A DNA stretch of 39,726 bases from Candidatus Heimdallarchaeota archaeon (GTDB lineage Archaea; Asgardarchaeota; Heimdallarchaeia; Heimdallarchaeales; Heimdallarchaeaceae). The notes under the pieces are model-generated. The model was not told where the DNA came from. It was given only the letters and a program-made list of their open reading frames with translations, and did not search any database. A program made the position numbers and the translations under genes. The DNA lies in NCBI GenBank assembly GCA_030608385.1, contig JAUWEG010000013.1, positions 1 through 39,726 of the forward strand, written 5' to 3'. The first letter of the stretch is position 1; each line of letters opens with the position of its first letter. Positions 2 to 39,608 of the stretch are shown piece by piece.

Positions 2-889
2 TTGGAAAATATTGCTGTTTCGACTTCTGACGAGCTGATTAGAAAGGTTGAAATTAGTAAGAAGGATGCGAAAAAAGTAATAGAAGCTGCACAAAACGAA
101 CTAGGAATCCAACCAGTTACAGCTTTACAATTTCTAGAAGCAGAAGGTAAAAGGGGTAAAATCACCACTTCATCCTCAGAATTTGATGGAATACTAGGAG
201 GAGGGATCTGGACACAAGAACTGACTGAAGTAGCAGGTGGATTTGGTTCAGGCAAAACTCAACTATGTTTTCAACTATGTATTAATGTTCAACTTCCTTT
301 TGATGAAGGAGGATTGGAAGGAAATGCATTCTTTATTGATACTGAGAGAACTTTTTCTCCGAAAAGAATTGTTGAAATGGCAACTTATCGAGGATTGGAA
401 GTAGAGGAAATCCTTGAAAATATCTATATAAATCCTGCACTTAATACACATCATCTCTTTAGTATAGTTGATACTCTTGATGAGATAATTCAAAAAAAGA
501 ACATTAAACTGCTTATAGTTGATTCTTTTGCTTCCCATTTCAGATCTGAATATATAGGTAAAGAGAGATTAGTTGAGAGACAACAAAGAATTATGCAAAT
601 TGCAGAAGAGCTGATTGCATTAGCAGTAAAATATGATCTTGCAGTTGTAGTAACTAATCAGATTATTGCGAATATTGAAGAGTTTCTTTTTGGAAGTCCT
701 GAAGAACCTGCTCTGGGTTTTGCGTGGGCTCATAGACCTCAACAAAGAATATTTTTGAGAAAATCAAGGGGAAGCTCAAGAATAGCAAGACTATTTGATA
801 GTTCTAGAATGCCTGAAAGAGAGGCATTATTCTATGTCACAGAAAGTGGATTAACTGACGCACCATTTTCTTCAGATTTCTATTCGTAA
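2..889 (+). CDS. radA: DNA repair and recombination protein RadA (5'-truncated by window edge)
   Basis: Archaeal RecA/Rad51-family recombinase, which forms filaments on single-stranded DNA and drives ATP-dependent strand exchange. The first residues in view match the end of the N-terminal helix-hairpin-helix domain of RadA, so the gene begins upstream of the window and the TTG at base 2 is only the first readable codon. Numbering from there, Walker A is GGFGSGKTQ at about 79-87 (the usual RadA form is GEFGSGKTQ, so Glu is replaced by Gly), Walker B is LLIVD at 170-174, and the SHFRSEY and ERQQ motifs follow at 178-195. The VVTNQ strand and the C-terminal RIARLFDS segment are intact. The usual GGH-x-LAH loop reads LGFAWAH, a mild divergence. 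It is convergent with rps25e. The family call is secure; a RadB or RadC-like paralogue is less likely because the SHFR/ERQQ region is full-length. Confidence 0.9.
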   Translation: MENIAVSTSDELIRKVEISKKDAKKVIEAAQNELGIQPVTALQFLEAEGKRGKITTSSSEFDGILGGGIWTQELTEVAGGFGSGKTQLCFQLCINVQLPFDEGGLEGNAFFIDTERTFSPKRIVEMATYRGLEVEEILENIYINPALNTHHLFSIVDTLDEIIQKKNIKLLIVDSFASHFRSEYIGKERLVERQQRIMQIAEELIALAVKYDLAVVVTNQIIANIEEFLFGSPEEPALGFAWAHRPQQRIFLRKSRGSSRIARLFDSSRMPEREALFYVTESGLTDAPFSSDFYS

Positions 890-955
890 ACATTAGTAAA
901 AAACAATGATTACAGCAACAAGATGTTAAAATGGAATTATAAGTAAGGATGGGAT

Positions 956-1258
956 TTAGCTACTTTCTGTAGCCTTAGCTGAGGTTGCTGAATATACTTT
1001 AGTTCTTCTTGAAGCAACAATCAGTTCAATAATTTTGTTTTCTTCAGCTTCACGCAAGAATTTCTTTGCTGTGCTTACTCTGATATTGAATTTATCAGAC
1101 AAATAAGCAGGAGTAATCCCCTTAGCTCTTCGAATTTCTGCATCTATTTTCTTCTTTGTTGCTTCATCAGGAATAAGATCGCGAATTGTGGGAATGAATT
1201 CCACTACGAGACCAAATTTTTTCTTCTTTCTGATTACTTTTCTTTCTCGTGAAGACAT
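956..1258 (-). CDS. rps25e: 30S ribosomal protein S25e
   Basis: Small-subunit ribosomal protein found in archaea and eukaryotes but not bacteria. The 100-residue product has a basic N-terminal tail (RKVIRKKKKFG) followed by the winged-helix core, recognisable by ITPAYLSDKFNI and then LREAEENKIIELI and the final strand KVYSAT. Length fits archaeal S25e. It is a single gene facing radA, with a TATA-like element about 33 bp upstream and almost no leader. The Ala/Ser-rich C-terminal tail is slightly longer than usual. Another small winged-helix regulator is possible in principle, but the pattern of conserved positions fits S25e. Confidence 0.85.
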   Translation of the reverse strand: MSSRERKVIRKKKKFGLVVEFIPTIRDLIPDEATKKKIDAEIRRAKGITPAYLSDKFNIRVSTAKKFLREAEENKIIELIVASRRTKVYSATSAKATESS

Positions 1259-1286
1259 TTCTCTCGTTTTTGCGTTTATGTGCTGA

Positions 1287-1296
1287 CTTTTAAGTT
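1287..1296 (-). promoter_or_regulatory. Candidate TATA box for rps25e
   Basis: On the minus strand the sequence reads AACTTAAAAG. Its centre is about 33 bp before the S25e start codon, as in several other genes here, which implies a leader of only a few bases. No experimental start site is known. Confidence 0.4.
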
Positions 1297-1409
1297 ATTC
1301 GATTGAATTGTTTTTGTGGTCTGCATATCGAAGAGGGAATACTGAAACATCCCCCTAAGATTCTTTTCATTAACCACAACTTTGATAATATTCTCTATCA
1401 AGCTTTCTT

Positions 1410-2405
1410 ATGGATAAGCTGGAAATCCTTTTACAAACCTTCAAAGGACTAAATGATGAATATCCTCTTTTCAGTCTATGGAAGCATTTTCCGAATATTG
1501 ACAGAGATCCTTATCAGCTTGCTGAAACTCATGTAGAGTTCTATAATAAGCACAAATTTGACTTAATGAAAATATCTCCTCATGGTAGATTTCCTGTTGT
1601 TGATTATGGATGTGTTATTGCAAAGGATTATGATCCCATTACAGGAAGTACAAGCTGTGAAAAATGCTGTATCGCTACTGTTGAAGACTGGGAATCATTA
1701 GAACCCATAGATGTTGGAGAAGGGGAACTGGGTAAGCAACTAAAAACTGTTGAGCTAATCAGCAAGGATTTAGAGAGTTTGCCAAAAATGATGACTTTGT
1801 TTTCACCCTTAATGGTTGCTTCAAAAATGGACTGTGATTTAGTTTCAAACATACATCAGAAACCAAACACAATAAGAGAATCTCTATTTACAATAACCGA
1901 GGATATTATTGAATTTGCGAATGCATCAATTGATGCAGGTGCAGAAGGGATTTTTCTAGCATCTCAACACTTTAGAAAAACAGATTTAACATGGGAAGAA
2001 GTGTTAAAGTTTGAAATACCATTTATAAAGAAATTATTATCAAAAATAAGGAATAAGGCTGAGTTCATTGTAATGCACGTCCATGGACAGGATATACGTT
2101 TCAAAGAAGCAGCTGAATTGATAGAAGTTGATGCTTTAAATTGGCATGACAGATTGACATGGCCTAGTATAGAGGAAGCAGCTAACATATTCCCAAAAGG
2201 ATTACTTGCTGGTATTGATGAAACGAGAACTTTAGTAGATGGAAAACCTGATGATATTAAAAATAATATCCTTGATGCGCTTAAAAAATCAACAGAGAAT
2301 GATAATAGAGTTATTATTGCACCAGGATGTGTAATTCCCATAACTGCTCCAGACGAAAATATCGAAATTATTTCCCAAACAGTTAAAAAAACTAGAAGAG
2401 GATAG
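1410..2405 (+). CDS. Uroporphyrinogen decarboxylase (UROD)-superfamily protein, possible corrinoid methyltransferase relative
   Basis: The 331-residue product has the TIM-barrel pattern of the UROD/MtaA superfamily: FSLWKHFP at 21-28 where true UROD has its N-terminal PxWxMRQAGR motif, LNWHDR at 243-248, LAGID at 266-270 and APGCVIP at 304-310. The HemE arginine motif is absent. Instead there is HVH at 223-225 and a cysteine at 307. Methylcobamide:CoM methyltransferases (MtaA/MtbA) bind zinc through HxC and a distal Cys at comparable spacing, so a metal-dependent methyl-transfer role is more plausible than heme synthesis. No heme genes are nearby. The next gene starts 6 bp downstream, so they are probably co-transcribed. 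The substrate cannot be told from sequence. Confidence 0.75.
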   Translation: MDKLEILLQTFKGLNDEYPLFSLWKHFPNIDRDPYQLAETHVEFYNKHKFDLMKISPHGRFPVVDYGCVIAKDYDPITGSTSCEKCCIATVEDWESLEPIDVGEGELGKQLKTVELISKDLESLPKMMTLFSPLMVASKMDCDLVSNIHQKPNTIRESLFTITEDIIEFANASIDAGAEGIFLASQHFRKTDLTWEEVLKFEIPFIKKLLSKIRNKAEFIVMHVHGQDIRFKEAAELIEVDALNWHDRLTWPSIEEAANIFPKGLLAGIDETRTLVDGKPDDIKNNILDALKKSTENDNRVIIAPGCVIPITAPDENIEIISQTVKKTRRG

Positions 2406-2411
2406 AGAACG

Positions 2412-3074
2412 ATGAGTATTGAAAAAAAAGAAGAAGAGATTATTATTGCTAAACAAGCAACTAGATTCGGGTGGAAAGATTTTATCCTCAACCTTCTTTT
2501 TAGCTTGATTATGATATCAAGTTTTGTTGTTTTTGTTATTTGGGATACCCCCGCCAGCGACGATATTACAGATTGGTTACTAAGAATTTCAGTTACTTTA
2601 CTTCCTCTGTTTATTTTTGTAAATAGAACAATTAAGGAATTTTTCTATACTAAAGACTTCATCAAAATCGTAGGTGTAGAAATACATTATCGTTCAACAC
2701 CGCTTCTGATGACTGGATATAGGACAAAGAAAGGAAAAATACTAGTTAAAGAAGTAAGAAGATATGGTTTGTCACGCATTCCCAGAAAACTATCATTGGA
2801 TATGTGGAGAAAATATAGAAATAAAGCTATGCTTGTGATACAACTACGAAGTGGAAAAGAGTTTTTTATTGGTGAGTTCATTTCTAATGAAGATCTATCA
2901 GAAATCATTCTTCACATCAAACATATGCACCCAAAGGCAAAGTATTCTTCAAACTTAAGAGAAGAAATTCCTGAATTAGCAAAGAAGGAGAAGGAATTAA
3001 TAAAATCTAAGAAAGTTAAGAAGATAGAGGATTTCGATGATGAACCTGAGGGCACAGGATATAGAAAACGATGA
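2412..3074 (+). CDS. Membrane protein with two N-terminal helices and a cytosolic C-terminal domain, function unknown
   Basis: I do not recognise this 220-residue protein. It has two hydrophobic segments at about residues 18-44 and 50-68, then a soluble basic region rich in beta-type sequence (for example VEIHYRSTPLLMTG and MLVIQLRSGKEFFIG), and ends in a charged Lys/Glu tail. Two membrane helices followed by a compact beta domain is reminiscent of bacterial-PH-like membrane proteins, but that comparison is only structural impression. It follows the UROD-family gene by 6 bp and precedes the MfnF-like gene by 47 bp, so it may belong to the same transcript. Confidence 0.65.
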   Translation: MSIEKKEEEIIIAKQATRFGWKDFILNLLFSLIMISSFVVFVIWDTPASDDITDWLLRISVTLLPLFIFVNRTIKEFFYTKDFIKIVGVEIHYRSTPLLMTGYRTKKGKILVKEVRRYGLSRIPRKLSLDMWRKYRNKAMLVIQLRSGKEFFIGEFISNEDLSEIILHIKHMHPKAKYSSNLREEIPELAKKEKELIKSKKVKKIEDFDDEPEGTGYRKR

Positions 3075-8765: not shown

Positions 8766-10457
8766 TTAATTTAACCCTATAATTTCGCCATCTTCTGTAT
8801 AGTCCATTTTGTTAGCAGCTGGAACGGGAGGTAAGCCAGGCAGTAAGAACATGCTACCACAAATGGGGACGATAAAACGAGCACCAGTGTAAAGACGAAC
8901 TTCATCTACATTGAGAGTCCAACCTTTTGGAGCACCCATCAAACCAATTTTATCAGAAAGACTTAGTTGGGTTTTAGCCATACACATTGGAAAATCAGCG
9001 AAACCTAGTTTCTCGATTGCTGCGATTTCCTGTAAAGCTCGAGGAGTATATTCAACATCTTCTGCTCCATAGACTTTCTTAGCGATTTTCTCGATTTTAA
9101 CTTTAATAGGATCAGAGAATTCGTATGCGAATTTAACATCACCTTTACCCTTTTCAATTGCTTCCAAAACAGCTTCAGCTAAAGCAATACCACCTTCACC
9201 ACCTTTCATGAAAACTTCACTTTCAGCGGCAGTAACACCAAATTCAGAGCACTTATCTTTAATCCATTTAATCTCTTCATCAGAATCAAAGGGGAAGCGG
9301 TTAATAGCAACAACAGGGGGAATGTTAAAGACGTTAAGCATGTTATCAAGATGTTTTTCAACATTTTCGAAACCTTTAGCCAACTCTTCCATGTGAATAT
9401 TTTTAGCTTCATCAAGGTCTTTGATACCACCGTGGAGTTTGAGGGCACGAGCTGTAACAACAAGAACCACTGCGTTTGGTAAAGTGTCATATTGGCGAGC
9501 AACAATATCAACAAATTTTTCGAAACCTAAGTCAGCTGCGAAACCACCTTCAGTGATGGTATAATCAGCTAATTTCATAGCTAATTTAGTTCCAATAATA
9601 GAACTATTTCCATGTGCAATATTAGCAAATGGACCGCAGTGAATGAAACCTGGTACTCCTTCAAAGTTTTGCACTAGGTTTGGTTTTATTGCATCTTTCA
9701 GTATAAGTGTCATTGCTCCTACTGCTTCAATATCCTTAGCGAAGACTGGCTTATCATCATAAGTGTATCCTAATAGAATACTACCTAACCTTTCTTTCAG
9801 TTCTCCCACATCAGCTGACAGAGCTAAAATAGCCATAATTTCTGAAGCTGCAGTAATAACAAAACCTGTGTTTCGGACATCACCACCCATTCTTCTTCCA
9901 CCAAGTCCAGTAATGATATTTCTTAAAGCTCTATCATTCATATCAATTGATCTTGGCCAGGTTACTTTGGTTGGATCTATGTTACACTTATTTCCTTTTG
10001 TTAAGTGATTGTCAAGCAAAGCTGCAAGTAAATTATGTGCAGAAGTTATAGCATGTAAATCTCCTGTAAAGTGCAGATTTATGTCCCACATTGGAAAAAC
10101 TTGCGAAAGATGACCTCCTGTTGCTCCTCCTTTTATTCCAAAAGTTGGACCCATTGAAGGTTCTCTCAATGCGAACATGACTTTCTTACCCATCTTTTGC
10201 ATTGCTTGTGATAGACCTATTGTGGTTACTGTTTTTCCTTCCCCAGCTCTTGAAGCTGTCATTGCTGTTACAGCGATCAGTTTTCCATTTGGTTTGTCAG
10301 AATTAAGTATTTTAAGCATAGTTTGATAATTTATCTTAGCAACATACTTTCCAAATTGCTCTAGGTCATCTTCTTCTAGACCTACTTTTGCAGCAATTTC
10401 TCTAATGTTTTTCATATCTTTTGCTTTTTCTTGAGCAATTTCAATATCTTTCTTCAT
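8766..10457 (-). CDS. fhs: Formate-tetrahydrofolate ligase
   Basis: Cytosolic enzyme that makes 10-formyl-tetrahydrofolate from formate, tetrahydrofolate and ATP, the entry step of the folate-linked one-carbon pathway. The product is full-length (563 residues from the chosen start; the family norm is about 555-560). It has the P-loop RAGEGKTVTT, EPSMGPTFGIKGGATGG, the HFTGDLHAI segment, the GGRRMGG motif, NIAHGNSSI and the C-terminal GLPPVPAA. An in-frame ATG occurs 12 bp upstream (10469); I prefer 10457 because the upstream GATGAT can then serve as ribosome binding site, but either is possible. The enzyme is bacterial-type and patchy in archaea, consistent with old transfer. No other folate genes are adjacent. 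Confidence 0.93.
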   Translation of the reverse strand: MKKDIEIAQEKAKDMKNIREIAAKVGLEEDDLEQFGKYVAKINYQTMLKILNSDKPNGKLIAVTAMTASRAGEGKTVTTIGLSQAMQKMGKKVMFALREPSMGPTFGIKGGATGGHLSQVFPMWDINLHFTGDLHAITSAHNLLAALLDNHLTKGNKCNIDPTKVTWPRSIDMNDRALRNIITGLGGRRMGGDVRNTGFVITAASEIMAILALSADVGELKERLGSILLGYTYDDKPVFAKDIEAVGAMTLILKDAIKPNLVQNFEGVPGFIHCGPFANIAHGNSSIIGTKLAMKLADYTITEGGFAADLGFEKFVDIVARQYDTLPNAVVLVVTARALKLHGGIKDLDEAKNIHMEELAKGFENVEKHLDNMLNVFNIPPVVAINRFPFDSDEEIKWIKDKCSEFGVTAAESEVFMKGGEGGIALAEAVLEAIEKGKGDVKFAYEFSDPIKVKIEKIAKKVYGAEDVEYTPRALQEIAAIEKLGFADFPMCMAKTQLSLSDKIGLMGAPKGWTLNVDEVRLYTGARFIVPICGSMFLLPGLPPVPAANKMDYTEDGEIIGLN

Positions 10458-10753
10458 TATAATCATCATCTAAGATTGTTAGTTGAACCCCCTTTCTGAG
10501 TTTCGATTAAAAAATATTTGGATGTAGTAATAATATGATTCCAACAATCTTGTTCTGTTAAAACCATTTTTAAAGAAAATTTATTTGCTAAATTATATAA
10601 CAGAATTCAGATAATTAGATTACTCACTATTTTAGTAGTAAAACCCCTTTCTAATAGTTTTTTTCTGATAGAATGTTGTCAAATAGATACGTTCTAAAAT
10701 GTCCATATCCCTTTAAGCATAGAATTCAAAATCATAGAGTAGTGTATAGTTTA
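10458..10753. other. Divergent intergenic region between fhs and the AN1-protease gene
   Basis: About 295 bp, very AT-rich. A minus-strand TATA-like stretch near 10506-10518 could serve fhs. On the plus strand CCCTTTAAGC (about 10708-10717) sits about 41 bp before the preferred AN1-protease start. A T-rich run lies at 10657-10666. I see no tRNA or conserved RNA fold. Confidence 0.35.
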
Positions 10754-32106: not shown

Positions 32107-32859
32107 ATGAGTAGAGTAAATCTTGAATCAGCTCAAAACAATATTGAAAGGCTAGCTGCAAACCTCGACGAACTGCAACAAGTTTTAGCTAGCAAAAAAG
32201 AAGAGATCAACGGGAAGATTAGAGAACTTACGGAAGTACTTTCCTCCTTCTTCAAAGAAGCTGATGATATAAATCAAACGATTAATTCAGGAGAAGAAAA
32301 GAAAAGTCAAAGCTCGAATCAATTGGATCAACTCAATAATGAATTACAGGAGCTAAGTCATAGAAGAGATGTTCTTCAGTCTGAAATCACCAGCAAACAA
32401 AGAGATATTGAACAGCTTTCAGCTTTAATTCTAGAAAGAGAAAAAGTTAGTACGGAAGTCATTCTTCAAGTTGATTCCTTAAAAGAAAGAGTTGCGGACT
32501 TAAAACTCAAAATCGAAGAATTTGATGTTTTAACAGATGCATTAAATGAAGAAAACAAAGAACAAACAAGAACTAGAGAGATTAAAAACGCTGAACTTGA
32601 AAACAATTTTAATCGAATACTTTCCCGTTCTAAATCTTTACAATATTTAGTGAAGAATGATATTGTTACTTTGCCAGAAATACAGGTTTTACGTAGTTTG
32701 AATACACCCGGGGTAGATAATGCTGAAAATCTTAAGAAAACCTCTGGTGTTTCTGATGATATTATTCGTAAAATTCTCCAAGACTTAGCTCGAAGAGAAA
32801 TTATTGAATATGATCCTGCCTCTGGAAGGTTCAAAGTGCTCTCAAGGATTGATATTTAG
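32107..32859 (+). CDS. Coiled-coil protein with C-terminal winged-helix-like domain (paralogue 1)
   Basis: The 250-residue protein has an N-terminal coiled-coil of about 165 residues and a compact C-terminal domain (about 180-245) beginning LPEIQVLRSL and ending in the wing-like IIEYDPASGRFKVL, which has the look of a winged helix. The following gene has the same plan, so they are likely duplicates. GTGAGG at about 32095-32100 is a ribosome binding site. Coiled-coil plus winged helix would suit a dimeric DNA-associated or adaptor protein, but no family is recognised. Confidence 0.6.
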   Translation: MSRVNLESAQNNIERLAANLDELQQVLASKKEEINGKIRELTEVLSSFFKEADDINQTINSGEEKKSQSSNQLDQLNNELQELSHRRDVLQSEITSKQRDIEQLSALILEREKVSTEVILQVDSLKERVADLKLKIEEFDVLTDALNEENKEQTRTREIKNAELENNFNRILSRSKSLQYLVKNDIVTLPEIQVLRSLNTPGVDNAENLKKTSGVSDDIIRKILQDLARREIIEYDPASGRFKVLSRIDI

Positions 32860-32868
32860 GTGATTATG

Positions 32869-33621
32869 ATGTCAGAAGAAAAACTAACAAACTTACTTGA
32901 AGAGATTAAGAGAGATATTGAAGAATTATCTTCGCGTGTTTCAGCTACTATTTCCACTTCAAAGGTGACAATAGATTCCACAAAAGATGATGTTAAAGTC
33001 ATCCCAGACTATATTGATTCATTAAAAAATTCTTTACATGGACTGAAGGAGAACAACGAACAACTAAAAGAGAAGGATATGCATACACAACAATCAATCG
33101 AGACTACCAAAACTGAAATGGAAATCAATATTGCAAAGAAAAGTGAACTGGAATCGACGGAAAGTAGTAAAAGACAATACAAAGAAGAAATTGAACGCAA
33201 AATTATTGATTTTCAACAGAAGGTTAGTCAACTGGAATCAGAACATAAGCAATTTAGTTCTGATGTCAAAAGTAAAGAACTGATTTATACTCAACTTCAA
33301 ACTCAATCCAAGGAAACTGTTGATGCATTAGATCATAAAATAGCTGAAGCAACTGCTAGGTTAGCACAAGTAGAAAATGAAAATAAACTAATTGTGTATC
33401 TGATGGATTCTGGTCTAATGGATGTTCCTGAAGCAGAGGTTGTTGCAACAATCGCATCTCGTCCTGAAGGTCTTAAGCTAGCTGAGATTAAGGAAAAGGT
33501 CAATATGCCTCCTGTAAGAGTTCAACCTACAATCAATAATCTGTTGGAATCTGTTATAGAATATGACGCAACGAGTGATTCTTACAAAATACTTGATATT
33601 ATAAAGAAAGAACTAGAGTAA
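32869..33621 (+). CDS. Coiled-coil protein with C-terminal winged-helix-like domain (paralogue 2)
   Basis: Same architecture as the gene before it: about 170 residues of coiled-coil, then a helix-turn-helix-like end (VYLMDSGLMDVPEAEVVATI, SRPEGLKLAEIKEKV, and a final wing VIEYDATSDSYKIL). The frame is open from a GTG at 32860, but AGGTGAT at 32858-32864 followed by ATG at 32869 gives a proper ribosome binding site, so I start there. It directly follows paralogue 1, so the two proteins are made together and could form a heterodimer. Confidence 0.6.
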   Translation: MSEEKLTNLLEEIKRDIEELSSRVSATISTSKVTIDSTKDDVKVIPDYIDSLKNSLHGLKENNEQLKEKDMHTQQSIETTKTEMEINIAKKSELESTESSKRQYKEEIERKIIDFQQKVSQLESEHKQFSSDVKSKELIYTQLQTQSKETVDALDHKIAEATARLAQVENENKLIVYLMDSGLMDVPEAEVVATIASRPEGLKLAEIKEKVNMPPVRVQPTINNLLESVIEYDATSDSYKILDIIKKELE

Positions 33622-33769: not shown

Positions 33770-35143
<1,374 letters not shown>

Positions 35144-35181: not shown

Positions 35182-38148
35182 TTATTTTTCAGGTTTCAAT
35201 ATTATTCCTTCTCGTTTTTGGGCGTCTATCCTAACTGTTAAAGGGTTTTTCAGCTCAATGTGTCTTACAAATTCCAAATCAGTTTTAGATTTTTGTTTAT
35301 TTATCCAATCCCAATCTATCTTATGATGCTCAGATTTATGCTTAATATGGAAATACCCAATATTAGCTGATACAATATTATGGAAGAAATGAGTACCTTG
35401 AGAAAAATCAATTGAGAAACCTTCTAGAGATGTCTCAATTATAGTTTTTGCCCCATTAATATTACTCCATTTAGCAGGGATTCCTAAAAATCTATCAGCT
35501 GTCCCCCATCTACCAAAACCTATTAACAAGTAGGGACGATTCTTCTTAGTTAACTGGGAATTTAGTAAATCTATTTCTTCAACAATTTCTAGAGTTTTTG
35601 TCTTATCAAACATCTCTGCCTTAACATAAACAATATCCTTGATATCCGATTGGAGAAGATTTCCTGACACATGCGAAGAAAATGCTAAGATTTGATTAAC
35701 GTCTACAACCTCAAAATCATCTAATAAAAGAGCTTCTTGTTGTAAGAATGGTCTTATTTGTAATATATAGAATTTATCCTTTTCGCTCTTCGAATTACTG
35801 AAGTTTCCAGCAAACTCAATTTCTATTGAAGAACCAAGAGCTTTTTCACCAACAGATAAAATTCTGGTTACCAATCTTGCTAAAGGTGTAGTTTCAAATT
35901 TTAATTGCTGATTGAACGTTATAACAGGAGATCCTTCGCCAAAGAAACCTTCTTCTAAAGATTCTGTATTGAAATTATAACTATCTGCAATTTTGGATAA
36001 TGTTCCCTCCTTAATGGCATCTCCAAGGTCTAAGCGTTTAATATAGGGGTCATCATCAAGAATATCAAATTCAGTTTTTGTTAAATCAACACCATAGTAG
36101 TATTTCTGGCTTTGATTTAATAGTAAATCAGGTGTTGAGTAGTAATTTATTTTAGGATATTTTGGACAAAATCGCACAGAAAATTCCCCCTCAACAATTG
36201 TTTTACCAAGCCCTAGAGCAAGATGTGCAATTCTATCTTCAGGTTTCATATAATCTCCAAAGGGGTAATAATTATATGATGCTGCAGTTCCAGAGAAATC
36301 TGGATAAAAATGATTGCGTCTTTCTTTTCCTACGACTTTTTGTATAACAACAGCCATTTTCGATTCTTCAACAGTCTGTTGAATGGTTTCGACATATGAT
36401 TTTGCAAGTTTTAAGAATTGAGATGCATAAACAAGTTTTATAGCTGTACATAGTTGCTCAAGCTTTTCCTTCTTACTTCCATGATTATTTGGAATCATAT
36501 AAGTATCGAAAATTCCAGCGAACGGTTGGTACGCAGAATCTTCTAGAAGACTTGATGAACGAACAGCTAAAGGACCATCTAAATCTTTGAGAATAAATGC
36601 TAAATCATTTCTTAGACTCCTTGATAGTTTGCTATTAACGAAGCTCTTCTTTATTTCAGAATCTGGGGCATCTGATAATGCAAAATCATATAGATTATTA
36701 TCTTCCATGAACTTATCATATTCATCAGTACCAATAACAATGGTTTTTGGAATATCAATATTGACTGTAGCAAAATCATCTTTAATCATTAACGAGTTAA
36801 GGAGAAACATCAAGAAAGCAATACCCCTTCCTTTCCCGCCTAATGAACCTGGTCGTAATCTTAGATATAGAGTCTCAGGATGATAATTATCTCGAGAGAA
36901 ATCATTAATAACACCTCTTGTTTTTTCCATTACAATATTATCTATTGTTTTAATTAGAAAGTCTCTAAGCTCAATTTCAGTAAATTCAGAAACTTTCCGA
37001 GGTTTCAATGTTTCAGCAATTTCGAATTCACCTCTTGCACGTAACCAGTTAGAAAAATGATCACTTTTTCCATGATAAACTAAGGAATTTAAAGGTACTT
37101 CAGAAAGTTGCTTGTAAAAAGTAATGACATCAGTAGCATGACCATAAATATTGCCATCCTGATCTTTAAATATGAACTCTCCAAATCCAACATATTCAAG
37201 AAGCCATTTTCGAAGATCCCACAGCATACCATGTGACCGTTTATGAATGAAATAACAGTTCATCTCTTCGGCTTGTTCTCGATAAAAATCTTTACTTGAT
37301 TGTAGAACAATAGGTAAGTTAGGAAAATCTTCTTTTATTCTCTCTGCAAAGAGAAATCCAGCATTTTTGTTTAGTTCTCCATCAAGTGGAAACTCTATGT
37401 CTGAGATAACACCCATTACGTATTCTTTATAGCGTTCATAATATGACAAGGCTTCTTCATAATTCTCTGCAAGCAGAATTTTTGGTCTTACTCGCATCTT
37501 GAGCAAATCCTGAAAATCATTTGCACCTTCAGTAATTAACCGATGAGTTTGTCTCATAATTTCTCCATAAACTTCTGGAAGCATTAGAGAATAGAACCTA
37601 ATTGAATCATCAACGAAAATAAAAACTCTTACATTACCAGCATTTGTATCGAAATCTGCATTAAATCTATCCTCAAGGTGTTTGATAATAGCAATGAAAA
37701 TCTTACTGTCTCCATTCCAAACAAAGACTCTATCTATGCCTTTTCGTTTACTAAATTCAGGAAGATACTTGATTTCTACAACACTATTTAGCAGTAGAAT
37801 TACAGGAATATCTTGGATTTCCTTAACATTTGCTCCAAAAGAAAAAGCATCCATATCTCCTAATCGTCTCATGGTAATAACTAAATCAAACTTTTTCTCT
37901 TCTAGCATATCTAAAGCTTCATTAGCAGAAGATACACGAGTAATTCTTGGTAGAGTTCGAAGATTGAGATTTTGAAATTCTTCATAAATTTGATCAGATA
38001 ATCGACCATCCTCTTCTAGCATAAAACTATCATAAATACTAGAAACGAGAAGGACATTTCTCATTCTTCTATTCATAAGTTCATGAAAGATTTTGTATTT
38101 TGGTTTATATTCTAGAAAGAAGCTAACTGCTTCTTGATCAGTAGTCAA
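35182..38148 (-). CDS. Receiver-domain/PEP-synthase-like ATP-grasp fusion
   Basis: A 988-residue cytosolic protein. The first region (about 30-160) looks like a decayed response-regulator receiver. The second (about 172-330) is a receiver with a full acidic pocket: D180-D181 in FVDDS, D250 in ISDIEFP and K286 in QSSKD. From about 430 comes a PEP/pyruvate-binding ATP-grasp domain, with RPGSLGGKGRG and PLAVRSSSLLEDSAYQPFAGIFDTY. The phosphohistidine swivelling domain and the PEP barrel of PEP synthase/PPDK are missing. The C-terminal end (FGRWGTADRFLGIPAKW...) is not one I recognise. Similar receiver/PEP-synthase-like proteins exist in bacteria (my recollection, not checked). A minus-strand TATA (about 38200-38211) and a GGATGTGA-like site precede the start. 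Confidence 0.65.
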   Translation of the reverse strand: MTTDQEAVSFFLEYKPKYKIFHELMNRRMRNVLLVSSIYDSFMLEEDGRLSDQIYEEFQNLNLRTLPRITRVSSANEALDMLEEKKFDLVITMRRLGDMDAFSFGANVKEIQDIPVILLLNSVVEIKYLPEFSKRKGIDRVFVWNGDSKIFIAIIKHLEDRFNADFDTNAGNVRVFIFVDDSIRFYSLMLPEVYGEIMRQTHRLITEGANDFQDLLKMRVRPKILLAENYEEALSYYERYKEYVMGVISDIEFPLDGELNKNAGFLFAERIKEDFPNLPIVLQSSKDFYREQAEEMNCYFIHKRSHGMLWDLRKWLLEYVGFGEFIFKDQDGNIYGHATDVITFYKQLSEVPLNSLVYHGKSDHFSNWLRARGEFEIAETLKPRKVSEFTEIELRDFLIKTIDNIVMEKTRGVINDFSRDNYHPETLYLRLRPGSLGGKGRGIAFLMFLLNSLMIKDDFATVNIDIPKTIVIGTDEYDKFMEDNNLYDFALSDAPDSEIKKSFVNSKLSRSLRNDLAFILKDLDGPLAVRSSSLLEDSAYQPFAGIFDTYMIPNNHGSKKEKLEQLCTAIKLVYASQFLKLAKSYVETIQQTVEESKMAVVIQKVVGKERRNHFYPDFSGTAASYNYYPFGDYMKPEDRIAHLALGLGKTIVEGEFSVRFCPKYPKINYYSTPDLLLNQSQKYYYGVDLTKTEFDILDDDPYIKRLDLGDAIKEGTLSKIADSYNFNTESLEEGFFGEGSPVITFNQQLKFETTPLARLVTRILSVGEKALGSSIEIEFAGNFSNSKSEKDKFYILQIRPFLQQEALLLDDFEVVDVNQILAFSSHVSGNLLQSDIKDIVYVKAEMFDKTKTLEIVEEIDLLNSQLTKKNRPYLLIGFGRWGTADRFLGIPAKWSNINGAKTIIETSLEGFSIDFSQGTHFFHNIVSANIGYFHIKHKSEHHKIDWDWINKQKSKTDLEFVRHIELKNPLTVRIDAQKREGIILKPEK

Positions 38149-38264: not shown

Positions 38265-39608
38265 TTATTTTGCTGCCATTTCATCAGTTTCTTGACCTGT
38301 TGTTTTTATGAAAAGTGTACTTATAAATGCACCAATAAAGAATACAACAGAATATAGGAATAGGAAGTTTATACCAATAGCATCAAATAGAGCACCTGCT
38401 AGTACAGGAGAAGTAATTGCTGCTAAAGCTGAGAAAAAATAATATATTCCTGTATAAGTTCCTAATCGAGAAGGTCCTGCGAGTTCCCAAACTATGACTA
38501 TACTGTTGACGTTTACAAAAGCCCAGAACATTCCACCAAAGAAGAGGAGGAGTCCATCTATTATAATTTCCCAAGTCCAATTAAATGGTAAGAAATTAAC
38601 TAATGTTCGTAATCCAGGTATCTGCACAATGGAAAATATAACAAGTGGAATCATTGTTAATACCAAACCAACTAGTCCTATTAGTATGGTTCTTTTTCGA
38701 CCAATTCTTTTTGCGATTAATCCTGCTGGTAATGCAAACAAGATGAAAGTTAAAGAGTAAACTCCAAGAAGCATACTCGCACTTCCAGGAGAAATATTAA
38801 GAAGATCTGGTCGCGTAGCATATGTACTAAACCACGTTTCGATTGCATTGAATCCAAAAAACCACAACAAGATGGCAAAAAGGACAGCTAATAAACTTCT
38901 ATCTTTGTCAATAAACATCTGTTTAACTGATTTGAACAAACTTATTTTCTCTCTGGTTTCAACCTCTTTTCTCACTTTTTGTTCCTTAATGCTAAAAATT
39001 AACACAACTAAACAAAGTAACATCAGTATAGAGACTATCACAAAAGAGAGTATTGGATTCGCATCATGAATTGCACCCATAACAAACAAACCAATTAAAG
39101 CGCCCACACCCCCAAGTAAGTTAATTACTGCATTTCCTCTGCTCCGATAATCTTTTGAAACAAGATCTGGCATCAATGCAACTACTGGTGCTCTATAAAG
39201 AGCCATAGCAATATTGAAACCACCTATAATAACCAATATTAGAACAAGTGATTCTCTAAAAGTTGGTAGTAATCCAAAAAATACTGCAGCAACTGGAATA
39301 CCTATTAAAATAAATGGCATCCTTCGACCCCATTTAGTCCAGATATTATCAGATACTTTCCCTACCCATGGTTGTAGGGTTATTGCAGCAATGTTATCTA
39401 AAACCATTATAAAACCGATTATGAGTTTGGGATTAGATAGATGCCCAAGTAAATCTTCTAGATATAATGGCATGTAAACATTGAACATTGCCCAAGTTAT
39501 AGCAGTTGTAAAGAAACCAAGACCTATAACTGCCGTATAAAGGTAAGAAAAGCTTTCCCGATTTCTTGCTTTGCTATAATTTTCTCTAATTCTCGTAAAA
39601 TACGACAT
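38265..39608 (-). CDS. MFS transporter, GPH/sucrose-transporter-like
   Basis: The 447-residue membrane protein has twelve predicted helices. The loop after helix 2 holds KVSDNIWTKWGRRMPFILIG, in which the D-x-W-T-x-W-G-R-R-x-P-F pattern is that of the sugar:cation symporters (GPH and plant-type SUT/SLC45), and R-x-x-P-F-I is the SUT-type form. A second-half counterpart is AKRIGRKRTIL. Substrate is probably a sugar or glycoside but cannot be specified. A TATA box (ATTTAAATATT, about 39630-39640 on the reverse strand) centred about 26 bp before the ATG points to a leaderless mRNA. Faces the receiver/ATP-grasp gene in the same direction. Confidence 0.8.
   Translation of the reverse strand: MSYFTRIRENYSKARNRESFSYLYTAVIGLGFFTTAITWAMFNVYMPLYLEDLLGHLSNPKLIIGFIMVLDNIAAITLQPWVGKVSDNIWTKWGRRMPFILIGIPVAAVFFGLLPTFRESLVLILVIIGGFNIAMALYRAPVVALMPDLVSKDYRSRGNAVINLLGGVGALIGLFVMGAIHDANPILSFVIVSILMLLCLVVLIFSIKEQKVRKEVETREKISLFKSVKQMFIDKDRSLLAVLFAILLWFFGFNAIETWFSTYATRPDLLNISPGSASMLLGVYSLTFILFALPAGLIAKRIGRKRTILIGLVGLVLTMIPLVIFSIVQIPGLRTLVNFLPFNWTWEIIIDGLLLFFGGMFWAFVNVNSIVIVWELAGPSRLGTYTGIYYFFSALAAITSPVLAGALFDAIGINFLFLYSVVFFIGAFISTLFIKTTGQETDEMAAK

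Follow-up and report, generated by a model that had tools for sequence, protein, structure and literature searches.

The window analysed here, a stretch of 39,726 nucleotides from Candidatus Heimdallarchaeota archaeon (assembly GCA_030608385.1, contig JAUWEG010000013.1, positions 1 to 39,726), carries on its minus strand a single uninterrupted open reading frame (ORF) of 988 codons at 35182-38148. Its product of 988 amino acids (aa) is an uncharacterised protein that is conserved in this Asgard archaeon and in many bacteria. It is very likely built, from the N terminus, of an inactive receiver (REC1), a second receiver with an intact site (REC2), a DUF5752-like linker, a PPDK-type ATP-grasp domain, and a further C-terminal domain. 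Tail to tail with the gene, with 38 bp between, lies a glutamate dehydrogenase (GDH) gene. The gene, its GDH neighbour, and the parts of the protein are located as follows.

35182..38148, minus strand: whole ORF, 988 aa, predicted TTG start; a purine-rich AGGA/GGAGG stands directly upstream in several relatives
33803..35143, plus strand: NADP-glutamate dehydrogenase, convergent neighbour (NF006929, 759.5 bits, cut-off 536)
37666..38064, minus strand: REC1, residues ~29-161, predicted receiver fold without the phosphoacceptor Asp (PF00072 at 62-119; VIA match 8tef, PorX, Z 12.7 over 28-161)
37180..37635, minus strand: REC2, residues ~172-323, predicted receiver with E/D180, D181, D250, S284, and K303 (VIA Z 12.7-15.1 and conservation)
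37399..37401, minus strand: codon of Asp250, putative phosphoacceptor of REC2 (D in 76/76)
36919..37134, minus strand: helical linker, residues ~339-410, DUF5752-like (YHxxxxHFSxWLxAR; PF19027)
35734..36903, minus strand: PPDK-type ATP-grasp, residues ~416-805, with K439, R530, T549, E776, E778, and Q797 (PF01326; 5hv1, Z 26.1)
35185..35733, minus strand: C-terminal domain, residues 806-988, predicted swivelling beta/beta/alpha fold, no Pfam family (model and VIA)
35389..35391, minus strand: codon of His920, candidate phosphohistidine (H in 76/76 and 109/109)

The coupling to GDH is the weightier result, ahead of the domain anatomy. When the ORFs neighbouring 80 loci of the family were clustered, the GDH cluster was dominant, with 51 loci; the second cluster consisted of the family's own paralogs (16 loci), and no other cluster exceeded 7 loci. 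By tblastn, GDH was found in the examined flank at 55 of the 80 loci, and where both flanks reached at least 2 kb it was present at 38 of 51, including 25 within 500 bp. The nearest GDH gene lay upstream on the same strand in 19 cases, downstream on the same strand in 14, upstream on the opposite strand in 12, and downstream on the opposite strand in 10. Five of the 80 loci (L039, L045, L060, L069, and L088, with stops or frame breaks) were kept in this count and left out of the protein alignment, which comprised the remaining 75 loci and the window protein, 76 sequences from 22 named phyla. In a FastTree tree of these 76 members, with 10 rows set aside that had no GDH and a flank under 2 kb, GDH accompanied 54 of the 66 assessable rows, spread over 20 named phyla, and the tree required at least 10 changes of GDH presence and at least 14 of GDH arrangement. 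Since the pair has been reshuffled often and yet kept together, a single inherited gene order is hard to invoke.

Further samples showed the same neighbour. In a second, even sample of Bacteroidota, in which paralogs on one contig (e.g., L153/L169) were counted separately, GDH lay within ~1.5 kb at 16 of 21 full-length loci, or 12 of 17 after removal of four loci on contigs that, by their length, had already been sampled (L152, L155, L166, and L168); in three of the five misses, GDH was elsewhere on the same contig, 2.4, 15, and 46 kb off. All three full-length loci of Gemmatimonadota, one of them already sampled, had GDH beside them. Among 61 Bacteroidota genomes, a GDH match (E <= 1e-60) was present in 8 of 8 carriers of the gene versus 13 of 53 non-carriers, in one of which the match was distant (36%); the association had a Fisher probability of 6.9e-5, or 6.0e-4 without two seed genomes, both uncorrected for kinship. 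On the opposing side, the Asgard loci sampled had GDH at 23 of 30 in one set (L001-L030, whose flanks span at most ~1.5 kb) and at 6 of 20 in another, drawn partly from the same genomes (L111-L130). We consider a functional link between the family and GDH to be very probable. Because the gene repeatedly adjoins GDH, its protein probably couples a signal to nitrogen metabolism; GDH is an enzyme where carbon and nitrogen metabolism meet.

The input side of this coupling is predicted to be a pair of receivers. A full-length AlphaFold2 model built from the 76 sequences (mean predicted local distance difference test score, pLDDT, 86.1) contained two receiver folds of the (beta-alpha)5 type, both matching solved receivers in VIA comparisons at Z 12.7-15.1, with REC2 (172-323) reaching 15.1. 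In the window protein, the Pfam receiver model (Response_reg, PF00072; E 3.5e-7, scoring 30.8 bits where the cut-off is 30.2) falls on REC1 and not on REC2. Columns 91-94, which include or adjoin the phosphoacceptor position of REC1, are without Asp in all 76 sequences, in keeping with an earlier note on this DNA, made from the letters alone, that called the first receiver decayed; the domain as a whole is nevertheless constrained (W144 and G146 in 76/76) and detectable by Pfam, and by conservation and modelling it is best described as a maintained pseudo-receiver.

REC2, in turn, has the site residues of a receiver that could be phosphorylated, as the same note proposed. Of the 76 sequences, 74 carry E and 2 carry D at position 180, 72 carry D and 4 carry N at position 181, position 250 is D in all, position 284, the switch residue, is S or T in all, and position 303 is K in all, so that the complete site (acidic pair, Asp, Thr/Ser, and Lys) is present in 76/76 allowing N181 and in 72/76 if strictly acidic. 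The residues D180, D181, and D250 had been read correctly and the receiver fold had been anticipated within 172-330; K286, which had been named as the receiver lysine, is K in only 6/76, and the lysine of the site is K303. Elsewhere in the genome, assembled in 217 contigs, HATPase_c is matched 8 times and a receiver 5 times, indicating that two-component parts exist there. A search for a co-occurring histidine kinase gene, suggested earlier, gave no clear one among the inspected representatives of the eight commonest neighbour clusters, rarer clusters lying outside this survey; a partner kinase may still be present. A multi-PAS protein (upstream of the gene at L032:1561-4227) belongs to a neighbour cluster that occurs at 4 of the 80 loci; the one copy scanned had no HATPase match at E <= 0.01, and the L032 protein is possibly a degenerate sensor.

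Between the receivers and the enzyme half, the linker fell below the PF19027 cut-off in the window protein; in 9 of 12 relatives PF19027 picked it up at E <= 0.1, the best at 1.5e-11. A HisF/TIM-barrel identity for residues ~287-410, raised by weak phmmer matches mostly to HisF or designed barrels, was rejected, being absent from the profile search (E <= 0.001) and from the structure matches listed.

The ATP-grasp assignment made earlier held up well. PPDK_N (PF01326) matched residues 435-803 with E 7.1e-35 and 121.3 bits, against a cut-off of 27, and the modelled domain matched rifampin phosphotransferase RPH (5hv1; Z 26.1, 284 residues, over 426-805), phosphoenolpyruvate (PEP) synthase (2ols; Z 25.9), and PPDK (1dik; Z 18.6), with the short-chain HpeI (9goj) also among the best structural matches. 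K439, R530, E536, E776, E778, and Q797 are each present in 76/76; K439 is the putative equivalent of K22 of RPH and Q797 that of the Gln of PPDK. In a profile search, R530 and T549 aligned with R117 and T136 of RPH, which PMC4844700 lists among the residues positioning ATP. Judged by these residues, the ATP-grasp site looks active. The same residues bear on the idea that the protein is a catalytically idle scaffold regulating GDH by binding alone: adjacency to GDH by itself needs no catalysis, but catalytic residues kept in all or almost all of the 76 sequences speak against idleness, and we regard a scaffold as highly improbable.

Downstream of the ATP-grasp, neither Pfam nor the structure matches found a PEP barrel or a rifampin-type substrate domain in the window protein, the former in agreement with the earlier reading. 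Residues 806-988 make up one domain of 183 residues, leaving no third, substrate-binding domain. The receiver and ATP-grasp fusion is thus borne out by both Pfam matches and by the model, and the REC2 site residues, the kept ATP-grasp residues, and the missing PEP barrel together make phosphotransfer to an outside partner under two-component control a reasonable proposal. The earlier note had left that partner unknown and overlooked GDH, which is now a strong candidate.

The C-terminal domain was the part on which the earlier reading, that a swivelling His domain is lacking, probably erred. Folded alone, residues 806-988 gave a pLDDT of 89.4 and a predicted template modelling score of 0.88. 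Among 998 realigned chains, the top five VIA matches, at Z 5.7-6.6 over 102-118 residues, were the extra domain of pyruvate kinase (Z 6.6), PPDK (chain 381-510; Z 6.1), EI-Ntr (Z 5.9), RPH (chain 756-865; Z 5.8), and aconitase X (Z 5.7), the last of which we also place in the swivelling-domain class. Most of the lower VIA rows (GroEL/TRiC apical domains, aconitase, the small subunit of carbamoyl phosphate synthetase, and PA domains) are proteins of this swivelling fold in SCOP, which makes the case for the fold class stronger than that for the family. PMC4844700 places the swivel domain of RPH at residues 767-865 and groups it with those of PPDK, pyruvate kinase, and EI. In the full-length model, an alignment with PPDK extends through residues 426-987.

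Within this domain, His920 is the first residue of a modelled helix (920-927) that follows a strand (900-906); the catalytic His of PPDK sits at a comparable helix start after a strand. His920 is H in 109/109 sequences of a set gathered with a profile of the domain itself, including 13 distant paralogs, seven of them from Asgard archaea and six from Acidobacteriota (the phylum of L074); at position 924, 97 of the 109 have N and 12 have D. Residues 806-988 therefore probably hold a divergent phosphohistidine (swivelling) domain, as far as the model can tell, and only the substrate domain would be absent. For phosphohistidine chemistry in the protein, we put the chances slightly above even.

Paralogs with other domain combinations help to separate input from output. 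Stand-alone two-domain paralogs of ~590 aa (L173-L178 and L182) consist of PPDK_N and the C-terminal domain without the receiver half, and at 5 of 7 a second GDH type lies 41-222 bp upstream on the same strand; this GDH is closer to the one beside L043 (putatively NAD-type). The tie of this receiver-less form to GDH suggests that it is the ATP-grasp and C-terminal domains that deal with GDH, with the receivers as regulatory input. Asgard paralogs of ~870-900 aa (L145-L148, L150, and L151) carry a putative KaiC/RAD55-like N terminus, read from the sequence in 6 of 7 Asgard paralogs, ahead of PPDK_N (confirmed in L145) and the C-terminal domain; to judge by their sequences, they are the same output half behind another input module. 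A related paralog, whole or partial, flanks the first copy at 16 of the 80 loci (e.g., L094:8977-11952). L089, a locus that also holds the full-length gene and GDHs, shows a further architecture: a PPDK_N protein (2-2806, minus strand) with a front that reads ALGERAKELNCLYHVEELL, which we assume to be a sensor-kinase-like stretch.

These paralogs also bear on two rival schemes. One is a self-contained relay, in which phospho-His920 would phosphorylate Asp250 of REC2, either within its own subunit or in an adjacent one, making the protein its own ATP-driven kinase and receiver. It would suit a chain that combines an invariant candidate His with intact receiver residues, as well as the eight commonest neighbour clusters being without a clear histidine kinase; against it, the short paralogs have the enzyme half without any receiver, and the KaiC/RAD55-like fronts on the same half suggest that REC2 is an input. 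We know of no precedent for transfer from phospho-His to a receiver Asp of the same protein, and we think the relay very unlikely. The other is a metabolic enzyme that would use its ATP-grasp and His domains to phosphorylate some small molecule from the pathway of GDH, such as a 2-oxoacid or an amino acid, bound by the linker or a partner, with the receivers only tuning its activity. PPDK, PEP synthase, and RPH hand phosphate to small molecules, according to PMC4844700, and at single loci the gene is accompanied by a glutamate synthase-like gene (L061) or by flavin/pyridine-nucleotide oxidoreductase genes (L037). The lack of a recognisable PEP barrel or rifampin-type domain, and the GDH-tied ~590-aa paralogs, which leave scant room for a substrate domain, count against such an enzyme, and we judge it unlikely.

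Taken with the GDH neighbourhood, the anatomy leads us to propose that the protein is a response regulator with a phosphotransferase output, in which a receiver gates phosphate transfer from ATP to a histidine and GDH or its pathway is acted upon (probability about 0.5). Phosphorylation of Asp250 would gate the ATP-grasp; the C-terminal domain would then swing in and His920 take phosphate from ATP, by analogy with PPDK and rifampin phosphotransferase. As the protein has no substrate domain of its own, the phosphate would go to a target in trans. GDH itself would be the likeliest target, which would bring ammonium assimilation or glutamate breakdown under reversible control, although direct action on GDH is a tentative part of the proposal. 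More doubtful is its most specific form, in which the protein would be a histidine phosphocarrier gated by its receiver and driven by ATP (an "enzyme I that runs on ATP"), would phosphorylate GDH and so switch nitrogen assimilation, would represent a new class of two-component output in Asgard archaea and many bacterial phyla, and would have a phosphohistidine domain so divergent that present family models miss it.

Several results weigh against the proposed phosphotransferase and its target. PF00391 (PEP-utilizers, with the GGxTxH motif) had no match at the locus at E <= 1 in a search of 21 genomes, and the window's C-terminal domain had no Pfam match at all. Pfam on 62 C-termini (61 of the 75 aligned loci and the window) returned scattered weak rows, the best at E 0.003 in one member, and no PF00391. 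Profile-profile comparison with hhalign failed (P 0.085 with small profiles and 0.2 with deeper sets), and Foldseek on the C-terminal model found nothing at E <= 0.001. The Z scores of ~6 do not exceed the 7-8 that the comparison tool gives as a usual best for models lacking a clear match, and the swivel reading depends on which chains rank first, not on the height of Z. On the GDH side, 12 of the 66 assessable members have no GDH in their flanks, and none was found in the examined flanks of the window's relatives of groups f2, f3, f4, and f6, genus g3, G022, and G086. A search for a residue signature in GDH, comparing 71 kinase-linked with 12 unlinked sequences, gave no convincing one: only positions 32 and 219 passed, and they are confounded by phylogeny. 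Adjacency to GDH indicates a pathway, not a substrate. An hmmsearch of the PDB with the C-terminal profile had its best match at E 0.07, to VAMP7/longin-type chains, which was taken as chance.

The failure of every sequence method to join the C terminus to PEP-utilizers, together with the modest structural scores and the presence of the short-chain HpeI (9goj) among the best ATP-grasp matches, favours the version originally put forward, an ATP-grasp acting without a phosphohistidine step as a ligase or direct kinase. On the other side, the 76 aligned members and the Asgard paralogs inspected have the C-terminal domain behind the ATP-grasp, the His of this domain is kept invariant, and its top five structural matches are swivelling domains; we consider that version improbable. 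A complete phosphohistidine domain in the C-terminal part, the finding that the earlier note had named as contrary to its own view, is thus suggested by the fold class and the invariant His, weakly by score and not at all by sequence. The note gave no strand for the ORF, which is on the minus strand. Overall, what the note observed was partly confirmed, being largely right apart from one wrong residue and one probably wrong absence, and its interpretation was partly supported.

Several known systems share features with the proposed phosphotransferase. PPDK and PEP synthase (PF01326, PF00391, and a PEP/pyruvate barrel) have the same N-terminal ATP-grasp catalytic residues, with a probable swivelling His domain following here too, whereas the 988-aa protein has no PEP/pyruvate barrel, a His domain unrecognisable by sequence, and two receivers in front. 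RPH, the best structural match of the ATP-grasp (Z 26), likewise has its His domain at the C terminus; its layout, according to PMC4844700, is ATP-grasp, drug domain, and a C-terminal swivel domain with His825. The 988-aa protein, unlike RPH, has no drug-binding domain between the two and has receivers and a GDH neighbourhood. With enzyme I and EI-Ntr of the phosphotransferase system it would share a swivelling domain that passes phosphate to a partner protein, and the C-terminal domain has EI-Ntr in its top five structural matches; the donor of enzyme I is PEP, whereas here it would be ATP by way of the ATP-grasp. Regulators of the PleD type, found among the structure matches, also have two tandem receiver folds ahead of an output enzyme, but the output here would be an ATP-grasp phosphotransferase rather than GGDEF, and it is the second receiver that keeps its site, whereas in PleD it is the first.

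Response regulators usually act by binding DNA or through second messengers, and a PPDK-like phosphotransferase as response-regulator output would, if true, be an unusual route from signal to metabolism. Reversible inactivation of GDH in vivo has reportedly been described in Bacteroides in older work, which a search of the open-access literature did not find; the gene pair is a concrete candidate for such questions, if those Bacteroides species carry it. In the open-access literature, most subscription journals being outside the search, no paper was found on the 988-aa family, its domain pair, or its GDH neighbourhood. The analysis offers a lead on function for at least 582 stretches that encode relatives and draws attention to a conserved C-terminal domain of ~180 residues that every Pfam model missed.

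The family is old and conserved, yet patchy. A scan of one genome per species gave at least 590 matching stretches, of which at least 582 encode a relative. The gene was found in 35 of 37 related genomes (E <= 0.001), and 55 of 58 same-class genomes listed in the phylum search matched at E <= 1e-20, some as pieces; the nearest named relatives, among the matches listed, were from Heimdallarchaeota and other Asgard metagenome-assembled genomes. At E <= 1e-200, with seed genomes included, it was present in 16 of 118 genomes of Bacteroidota (the phylum of L071) and in 3 of 61 of Gemmatimonadota (the phylum of L038). Full-length relatives at 38-96% identity rule out a chance ORF or pseudogene. The predicted start codon of the window ORF, at 38146-38148, is TTG; at this position, 14 of 17 close relatives (L001-L017) have TTG, two have CTG (L003 and L005), and one has ATG (L013).

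The gene next upstream of the 988-aa ORF, on the same strand after a gap of 116 bp, encodes a transporter of the major facilitator superfamily (MFS) and is located as follows.

38265..39608, minus strand: MFS transporter (PF07690, E 6.4e-40)

Between an OppD/OppF-like ABC pair and GDH lie two adjacent coiled-coil-like ORFs of 250 and 253 aa (32107-33621), with generic coiled-coil matches only. In addition, the window of this Asgard archaeon encodes a formate-tetrahydrofolate ligase at 8766-10469 (E 2.6e-234).

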